64,000 nucleotides of DNA from Blumeriella jaapii (Eukaryota; Ascomycota; Leotiomycetes; Helotiales; Drepanopezizaceae), in the NCBI GenBank assembly GCA_009599575.1, contig VWND01000015.1:930001-994000 (forward strand). Direction: 5' to 3'. The notes beneath the pieces are model-generated. The model worked only from the letters and a program-made list of their open reading frames with translations, was not told where the DNA came from and made no database searches. This document shows positions 46,998 to 49,275 of the stretch, in pieces (within the stretch, counting starts at the first letter, position 1; every line of letters begins with the position of its first letter). The position numbers and the translations under genes are program-made.

Positions 46998-47172
46998 GCC
47001 CGGCTGGCACAATTGGTTAGCGCGTGGGCCTTTTACAAATGTTGCTTCCGTTACTCTGATGGATAGTGACAATACTTGAAAAGCCCAAGGTTGAGAGGTA
47101 AGATTCACTCTCATACAATTGCTCGGTTTGGTTCCTCACTAATATTCAACAGTTCGAGCCTCTCGTCGGGCG
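46998..47172 (+). tRNA. tRNA-Lys (UUU) with anticodon-loop intron and a second, spliceosomal-type intron in the T arm
   Basis: Acceptor stem GCCCGGC/GTCGGGC (46998-47004 / 47165-47171) pairs fully with one G-U. The D arm is GCAC-AATTGGTTA-GCGC with one A-C mismatch. The anticodon stem TGGGC/GCCCA (47025-47029 / 47083-47087) is perfect, with loop CTTTTA-A giving anticodon UUU. A 46-base intron (47036-47081) sits at the canonical position 37/38. The variable loop is AGGTT. T stem GAGAG (47093-47097) pairs CTCTC (47160-47164) with loop TTCGAGC, but 55 bases (47098-47152) interrupt between positions 53 and 54. This insertion has donor GTAAGA, branch ACTAAT and acceptor CAACAG. The A box (TGGCACAATTGG) is intact. 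The B box (GTTCGAGCC) is also complete, because the insertion ends in G. Discriminator base G. A T7 pol III terminator follows. It could alternatively be a disabled copy. Confidence 0.88.
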
Positions 47173-47180
47173 ATCCCACA

Positions 47181-47187
47181 TTTTTTT
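47181..47187 (+). terminator. RNA polymerase III terminator of tRNA-Lys
   Basis: Seven T residues starting 9 bases after the discriminator base. Confidence 0.85.
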
Positions 47188-47295: not shown

Positions 47296-47332
47296 TCGAG
47301 CCTCTCGTCAGGCGACAGTTATATTTTTTTTT
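47296..47332 (+). pseudogene. Partial duplicate of the tRNA-Lys 3' end with T-run
   Basis: TCGAGCCTCTCGTCAGGCGA repeats the tRNA 3' half (T loop to acceptor, one G-to-A change) and is again followed by a run of nine T. Downstream similarity (ACGGAcGTTATG at 47362 versus ACGGAaGTTATG at 47248) shows a tandem duplication of about 100 bp that lacks the 5' half. Confidence 0.75.
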
Positions 47333-47373
47333 CGCTACAAAATAAAAAACGGAATTTCAACACGGACGTTATG

Positions 47374-49275
47374 GTCCTCCTGCTTGCGATCCCTCACGTT
47401 GGCAAAAGCTGAAGCTTCTTTTCTGCCACTCCTAGCCGGGTCGGATTTTTTTATGTCTACCAGCGGCCTAAATGGAGCCTGTCACTCGCGCTGTCTCTTG
47501 CTCTTGCTCCTCGTCTCCTTTCATTCGATCTATCCTGATCCCAGAACTGCAACACAAGTACATCTGACAGTCGTTACAACTGGTCTGGCTTTCTGCTCGT
47601 AAGCGCTATTTATGACCCCGTAGAACCAACACCTCTGATTCTGGCTCTCTTTCGATAGTTGTTAGTTAGCATGGTGCGAAACATGAGCCCCGGTTTGTAG
47701 GTCTGACATTCGTTCGGGCGGGCCTCTTCTCTCTTTTTCTGGTTGTTCCTCTGCCCTTTTCTTGCGCAGATTGTACAGTACAGTACAGTATGAGTGTATA
47801 TAGTAAGCGAGCTACAAACACATTTGGACCAGGCAGGGCTTGAAAATGATAAGAACCTTGTGTTTGCAGACAAGCACTCGGGGTGGCGGTTTGATTAGGA
47901 TAATCCAGACCAGCTTGTCTACTCGGGATTGTGTGTGTGTCTGTACCTTATGCTCTCCAAAGGTTGTGCCTATCAATCAATCAATCAATCAATCTATGCT
48001 GTCCAGCAAGCGTTGCAATTCTCAGAGGCCCAACCAACTTAAGCCAAGCTCCGCCATTTGCCTCTCAGTCAAGATCACTCACTCACAGCTTCCGTTTGGC
48101 GCTGACTCCATCCACATTGGAGGGCGAGCAGACTCTGGAAGGGGAGAGAGAGCACAGTGTCGGGCCCTAACTCGGTCTGGCGGCCATTCACGAGGTTGTC
48201 CGCGGGAACAGCAAAACTCGACGGCGATCATCTGCCGATGGAGTGGAGAGATGGATGGTGTGCTCTGTCCGGCTGTAGTCTGCACCGAGATCAACGGACT
48301 GCTGCTGCGCGGGGGACATGACGTATTCCTCGTCCTGCGCTACCAGCGCCAGCGAGTAGAAGTCGGGGTGTAGAAGTCTTGTGGGGGTCTAGATGCGTTC
48401 TGCTGTTGCGTGTCTTTCTAGCGGTTGTTTGTTTACAGGAAGAGCGAGCTGTATGGAGCCTCGTCAAGCCGCTCGCGCGAGCGGCTTCTACGGTACTGTA
48501 CCTTAGAATCAGAGAGCAGATGGACGTTGAATGCAAGCAACATCGGGGGGCCTGTCGTGTGGCTGCGGGCTCCATCGACGTTATTTTTGTCGCTGAACTG
48601 GGCGCTGTCATACTGAAGAGGAAGAAGTTTGTCGTGTTGTGGATTTAGCAGAAAACGCGGGAGAATTCAGACATGAGGGTAACTAACTACCTACCTAGGT
48701 ACCTAGGTACAGTACAGTACAGTACCTGTTTGGCCACATGACCGTTCGATGCCGTGACACTGAGTCAACCGCGAGATAATAAGACGGTGAAAAATCTCTA
48801 TCTAGAATGGGAAATCTGGAAGGTCGTAGATACATGATTATCATCTGAGTGTACTAGAGTAGAGTATCTAGCTAGGTACGCTTCGATTCAAGAGCAAAAA
48901 CACCGCGGGATTCCCAATGTAAACAAACACACCTCATTTCTCCCTCACCAGTAAGTATCTTTAAGCCATGCCGTGCCGTGCTGTACCGAACCGCGCCATG
49001 CCATGCCATGCCATGGTGAAATTTAATTTTTTGTTTTCCGCCCCATCAATGCTCCAGAAACGACAAACTGATAGCATACACCTGCAATGCAAAGGGGCTC
49101 TCCTCGTCCTGAACCGCGCTAGATAGATAGCAGAAACGCCGACGAATGCTAGCCACACACAAGCCAACTGTGAAAAAAGAACACAAAGAAAAATTTGAGT
49201 ATCCAAATATAAAGACCACAGTGCCCTCAGCACCTTTCATATGTTCATACATCCCCTCCCCCCTCTATTTTCCCC
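47374..49275. other. Intergenic region, no gene recognised
   Basis: Holds (CAAT)n near 47970-47992, GTACAGTACAGTACAGTA near 47774 and 48707, and a CATGC-type pentamer run near 48967-49015. Frames of 70-177 codons occur but have no recognisable content. Confidence 0.45.

Follow-up and report, generated by a model that had tools for sequence, protein, structure and literature searches.

A tRNA-Lys(UUU) gene of the ascomycete Blumeriella jaapii with a probable spliceosomal-type intron in its T arm, and candidate counterparts elsewhere in the genome

The DNA considered here is a stretch of 64,000 nucleotides (nt) of the helotialean fungus Blumeriella jaapii (positions 930,001 to 994,000 of VWND01000015.1, hereafter the window), part of contig C15 in an assembly of 47.4 Mb and 91 contigs. 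At 46998..47172 of its forward strand, on which all features of this gene lie, is a gene for a transfer RNA (tRNA), tRNA-Lys(UUU), whose cloverleaf forms only when two segments are removed. Exon 1 (46998..47035) carries the 5' strand of the acceptor stem, the D arm, the 5' strand of the anticodon stem and the loop up to position 37, and includes an A box, TGGCACAATTGG (47005..47016), that fits the consensus TRGYNNARNNGG. A 46-nt intron (47036..47081) follows at position 37/38, where introns are frequent among the tRNA genes of this genome; the cloverleaf fit places it there, and it is presumably cut out by the tRNA endonuclease. Exon 2 (47082..47097) holds position 38, the 3' strand of the anticodon stem, the variable loop and the 5' T-stem strand GAGAG. 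Between positions 53 and 54 the T arm is then interrupted by a 55-nt intron of spliceosomal type (47098..47152), with the donor GTAAGA, a putative branch site CTAAT (47139..47143) 14 nt before its end and a CAG acceptor, and exon 3 (47153..47172) supplies the T loop, the 3' strands of the T and acceptor stems and G73. The B box, AGTTCGAGCCT (47151..47161), takes its first two bases from the AG that closes the intron, and a T7 run (47181..47187), 8 nt past position 73, is the probable terminator for RNA polymerase III (pol III).

An earlier note on this locus, made from the letters alone, had proposed this arrangement, and on rereading we found the same coordinates, sequence and splice signals. 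Its stem counts match ours as well (acceptor 7/7 with one G-U pair, anticodon stem 5/5, T stem 5/5), although a mismatch in the D stem, taken up below, went unmentioned. The border of the T-arm insert is ambiguous by 1 nt, with 47098-47152 and 47097-47151 yielding the same product, and only the former begins with GT and ends with AG. At standard settings neither ARAGORN nor Rfam found a tRNA in the window, and Rfam found none between 46800 and 47400 even at E <= 10. When ARAGORN was run on four forms of the gene (whole, without the T-arm insert, without the 37/38 intron, and without both), Lys(ttt) was called from the form lacking both alone, while the full gene, and the gene from which only the 37/38 intron had been removed, gave no tRNA. 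As a separate observation, the intron contains a CTCTC with which GAGAG of the T stem can pair as an alternative, forming a decoy hairpin (47093-47112) whose loop contains the donor site; this stretch is paired in a predicted precursor fold.

The signals of the T-arm insert are those of ordinary introns in the neighbouring protein genes. Five such introns, located through tblastn gaps and by eye, lie in the window, one in a gene for mitochondrial IF-2 (closest to Drepanopeziza brunnea at 69% identity, with Diplocarpon, Rhexocercosporidium and other Helotiales at about 60%) and four in a Vps41 gene. They are 45-58 nt long, have the donors GTATG, GTATG, GTAAG, GTGAG and GTACG, and carry CTRAY in four cases and CTGAA in the fifth; the motif and distance of the CTAAT in the Lys gene recur in 4/5. 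The likeness in signals and size that the earlier note had drawn is borne out for all the inserts described below, six in five genes, which measure 47-55 nt and without exception start with GTRNG, end with YAG and have CTRAY beginning 14-15 nt before the end. A random 51-nt insert of window composition would carry donor, branch site and acceptor with p ~5.7e-6 (5e-6 by 4 million draws). We also built a finder for a GTRNG..CTRAY..YAG insert of 38-90 nt in the T arm of an otherwise acceptable cloverleaf, tolerating at most one unpaired position in the acceptor, D and anticodon stems and none in the T stem, and ran it on the window and selected loci, the genome as a whole being probed by families, DNA and patterns. 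Its one match in the window was the Lys gene. Dinucleotide-shuffled versions of the window, amounting over both strands to 398,592,000 bases, or about 4.2 times the genome, gave 0.

Three further tRNA genes are interrupted in the same manner. In a tRNA-Met(CAU) gene on the minus strand of C62, from 1018547, the intron lies at 61/62 (GTGAG TTCGACTC / GTAAGT..GCTAATAAGTACTTAG / TCAC AGAGGGC A). This gene surfaced through a pattern for its intact 5' T-arm half and through a weak Rfam match, neither of which required splice signals, and its spliced product equals an uninterrupted copy on C91 except at two bases, which turn U2-A71 into C2-G71, a compensatory pair whose halves lie on opposite sides of the intron. 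A tRNA-Arg(CCU) gene (C18:515718-515840), likewise a weak Rfam match from a search with no splice-signal requirement, has no 37/38 intron and is split at 59/60 (GTGGG TTCGAG / GTGAGC..CTGAT..GAATAG / T CCCAT GGTGGTC G); once spliced, it shares GTGGGTTCGAGTCCCA with an intact tRNA-Arg(UCU) gene. A tRNA-Ile(UAU) gene (C74:72866-73078) combines a canonical 37/38 intron with a D-arm intron at 13/14 (TGACGC / GTAAGT..CTAAT..CAATAG / AGTGG) and a T-arm intron at 53/54 (GTGGG / GTATGT..CTAAC..CTGCAG / TTCGACA). The last was found by a pattern demanding CTAAY and YAG, the donor and the D-arm insert not being demanded; the finder, which recovered Met and Arg among the loci, misses this gene because it has two extra introns. 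Like Ile, the Lys and Met genes have a canonical 37/38 intron. Once the inserts are taken out, ARAGORN recognizes each of the four tRNAs, whereas it calls none of them in the unspliced genes (4/4 against 0/4), and in all four the T stem pairs 5/5 only across the insert (read by eye for Ile). Among the T-arm intron patterns, the one that yielded Ile had 21 matches, its 20 other matches all being examined, with a pairing stem at 189 nt in L082; of another with 39, all were examined and none fits; 12 of 14 matches to a third were examined and none fits, those on C36 and C57 being left out; and one with three gave Arg, Met and C2:732114, the last left unexamined. The survey was aimed at T-arm introns and not at those of the D arm, and its yield is a minimum.

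The small nuclear RNA gene U6 is split as well. The single U6 match above the Rfam cut-off (82.8 bits), found without any splice-signal criterion, has its first 27 positions aligned with sequence that we read as intron. Just upstream the gene runs GCCTTCGGGCATTTGGTC / GTAAGT..GATACTAACCTTCATCAG / AATTTGAAACGATACAG, with a 51-nt spliceosomal-type intron at C7:1619206-1619256 (L164, L112) after CATTTGGTC and a terminator T run 6 nt downstream. Its 5' exon was recognized from the U6 consensus, together with the UUCG hairpin present in the consensus that Rfam gives. The uninterrupted Met copy and like inserts in three further tRNA genes and in U6 lend support to the spliceosomal-type intron originally proposed for the Lys gene. 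Apart from their signals, the six introns show no likeness to one another (best p 0.06 among 15 pairs, against core shuffles), and the idea of a mobile-intron family was dropped; the Met and U6 introns have a common 5' start, GTAAGTT(T)CATTGC (p 0.15).

The positions of the inserts bear on how such genes might be transcribed. The B-box consensus is RGTTCRANNC, and with both inserts at 53/54 the DNA keeps it whole (Lys AGTTCGAGCC; Ile AGTTCGACAC), because the acceptor AG, placed directly before TTCG, stands for bases 52-53. In the Lys gene this AG corresponds to A52 G53 of the mature T stem, in keeping with the original remark that the G ending the insertion rebuilds the B box. In the Met gene the B-box core precedes the intron at 61/62. 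T6-T7 terminator runs follow position 73 by 8, 14 and 9 nt in Lys, Ile and Arg; in 43 intact genes the distance is 0-62 nt.

How far the fungus depends on these genes turns on their copy number. At an Rfam cut-off of E <= 0.001 the genome has 60 tRNA matches. Of these, 23 lie on C36, probably a mitochondrial contig to judge from its many closely packed A+T-rich tRNAs, and 37 on other contigs; ARAGORN agrees on a tRNA at 37/37 of the latter, and pattern searches added six intact genes, so that the inventory is a lower bound. Outside C36, BLAST and patterns, some of whose matches were left unexamined, turned up no other gene for Lys(UUU) or Ile(UAU); the earlier note had held that several intact Lys(UUU) genes elsewhere would speak for a dead copy here. 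In BLAST the Lys gene matched only itself, and in ARAGORN runs on 207 loci the other Lys(ttt) calls lay on C36 alone. The pattern GGTTAGNGCGNNNNNCTTTTA hit the Lys gene with no mismatch and, with one, 14 places in a single repeat, in which ARAGORN finds no tRNA. With one mismatch, GGTAGNGCNNNNNNCTTTTA hit 21 places, namely six known tRNAs (among them, as a positive control, all four Lys(CUU) genes of the genome), three places on C36, the Lys gene, four without a tRNA and seven that were left out. Of the 32 places with AGGTNNNNNGTTCGANNC, 19 are tRNAs; the split Met gene is one of them, and none is a further Lys(UUU). Four of the remaining 13 were examined and contain no tRNA. A pattern for Ile(UAU), again with one mismatch, found eight places: the Ile gene, three Ile(AAU) genes, the Lys gene and three without a tRNA; at its C28 match ARAGORN finds nothing. 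The lysine codon AAA is used 14, 13 and 9 times in the three window genes that were counted, and a Lys(UUU) tRNA is therefore needed.

We consider it highly probable, from sequence evidence, that the Lys(UUU) gene is a working gene with a U2-type spliceosomal intron, and that such introns occur in at least four tRNA genes and the U6 gene of this fungus. We also think it likely, with less assurance, that the essential Lys(UUU) and Ile(UAU) tRNAs are made only by way of the spliceosome, their introns being removed before the tRNA endonuclease acts, so that translation would depend on messenger RNA (mRNA) splicing; and that tRNA genes are open to intron gain where the AG can double as promoter sequence (53/54) or the B-box core stays whole (61/62). 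We posit that pol III would read the Lys gene from its A box and its B box, the latter preserved by the 3' splice-site AG standing for 52-53, and that the T-arm intron would be taken out by the spliceosome while the precursor is in the nucleus. This would allow the T arm and the body of the tRNA to fold, after which the tRNA endonuclease, measuring from that body, would cut the 37/38 intron, and tRNA ligase would join the halves.

Several results weigh against this interpretation, and some of them would also fit dead tRNA copies with chance intron-like insertions. Mismatches or wobbles flaw the stems of three genes: A12 faces C23 in the D stem of Lys (GCAC/GCGC), U31 faces U39 in Ile, and four of seven acceptor pairs in Arg are wobbles. 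The Arg intron at 59/60 removes C61 of the B box in the DNA. In Met the first run of at least four T (a T5) lies only 68 nt past position 73, a displacement beyond all the intact genes, and the insert-free Met(CAU) copy means that the split one could be dispensable. With the T-arm insert alone removed from the Lys gene, ARAGORN draws the same cloverleaf but favours an intron at 31/32, which would make the tRNA Phe(gaa); since 37/38 is where the introns of nuclear tRNAs lie, we retain the Lys(UUU) assignment. The evidence for a single Lys(UUU) gene is incomplete: at two mismatches the search with GGTTAGNGCGNNNNNCTTTTA extends only to the matches listed, 7/21 GGTAGNGCNNNNNNCTTTTA places were left out, and one of these, C17:464975-464994, has the full D-arm motif GGTAGCGC and TTTTTA, with nothing found near it by the T-arm pattern AGGT..GTTCGA. 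Finally, the splice-site patterns matched no more often than the same patterns run backward (21 against 45, 39 against 43, 14 against 43 and 3 against 9), and we therefore place the weight on cloverleaf structure and not on match counts. According to the available parts of PMC4090602, eukaryotic tRNA genes with short insertions in the T or D arm are generally regarded as pseudogenes. Dead copies are nonetheless an unlikely explanation here, since all five tRNA inserts carry donor, branch site and acceptor, each at the chance level given above, the T stems are completed only across the inserts, the Met gene has a compensatory pair, and the matches examined outside C36 include no further gene for Lys(UUU) or Ile(UAU).

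It might also be supposed that the inserts are ectopic tRNA introns of the kind that the tRNA splicing endonuclease cuts out in red algae, nucleomorphs and archaea. Their position and multiplicity fit this idea, archaeal introns being described at 53/54 and 59/60, and D- and T-arm introns in algal nuclei and nucleomorphs, in the portions of PMC4090602 and PMC3978253 at hand. An endonuclease would, however, have no need of GT, branch site and AG, yet these are present in all five tRNA inserts, and the nucleomorph examples in the same portions are just 3-24 nt long, which makes this explanation very improbable. In a test for the bulge-helix-bulge motif the tRNA inserts formed two to three of four central pairs, but the canonical Lys intron itself only one of four, so that this simple test has no discriminating power. 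That the inserts are an assembly or sequencing artefact is scarcely credible even though the evidence comes from one assembly, since the same precise kind of insert occurs in five genes on five contigs (C15, C62, C74, C18 and C7) and splice signals are not something that artefacts would add.

Some further features of these and other tRNA genes are set down here. Behind the Lys and Met genes lie diverged tandem copies of the last exon and its flank (47296-47376; L108, downstream of C62:1018344). The Lys copy of exon 3 (47296..47315, plus strand) is 19/20 identical, within a duplication that extends downstream, and the copies start exactly at the first base of the last exon in Met and within 1 nt of it in Lys. 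We considered duplication as a footprint of intron gain (2/4 split against 0/42 intact genes, Fisher p 0.006, with a cut chosen post hoc; downstream-copy scores of 33 for Lys and 24 for Met). The link is not established, because the cut was post hoc, an intact gene reaches 21, and two intact tRNA-Ala(AGC) genes (L193 on C7 and L195 on C62) have downstream hairpins too. These second T-arm-like hairpins, CTTGGTTCAATTCCAAG and CGTGGTTCAATTCCACG, stand 10-14 nt beyond the tRNA, with the stem altered on both sides between the two genes, and perhaps provide an extra B box. The four Lys(CUU) genes (L043, L045, L048 and L049) are identical in mature sequence, with T at position 73, and their 37/38 introns, of 9-16 nt, are unlike in sequence; the acceptor strand GCCCGG of the Lys(UUU) gene is also found in them. 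On C36 (91,675 bases) several tRNAs are present twice, about 51.1 or 61.4 kb apart with non-uniform spacing, which looks like circular DNA assembled beyond its end.

tRNA introns and spliceosomal introns are usually treated as separate worlds with separate enzymes. If our interpretation is right, tRNA precursors made by pol III can be substrates of the spliceosome, the production of essential tRNAs is tied to mRNA splicing, and these genes offer a clean natural experiment on the sites open to new introns. Rfam, for the Lys gene, and ARAGORN, for all four, miss the unspliced forms, and insertions of this sort are usually deemed pseudogenes in the source cited above; more such genes may therefore hide in fungal genomes.

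The inserts belong, in our view, with the ectopic spliceosomal introns of non-coding RNA genes, tRNA genes being a class for which we found no spliceosomal intron described in the accessible parts of the open-licence literature. Canonical eukaryotic introns at 37/38 differ from them in position and enzyme and lack spliceosomal signals. The ectopic tRNA introns of Cyanidioschyzon, the Guillardia nucleomorph and the Thermoproteales also occupy D and T arms, several to a tRNA, with 53/54 and 59/60 among their positions; according to the sections available, they are removed by the endonuclease at a bulge-helix-bulge or by unknown means, and GT, branch site and AG go unreported there. The ribosomal DNA introns of lichen and other ascomycete fungi are likewise short GT-AG introns in non-coding RNA genes, although they reside in ribosomal RNA, a transcript of RNA polymerase I; yeast excised lichen introns of this kind from such transcripts (PMC8527467, as far as its text was available). 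The U6 introns of fission yeast and other fungi, a kind already known according to the accessible part of PMC5832005, also put an intron of mRNA type into a pol III RNA that is short and structured, but U6 is part of the spliceosome, whereas tRNAs stand outside it, with internal promoters and a splicing enzyme of their own.
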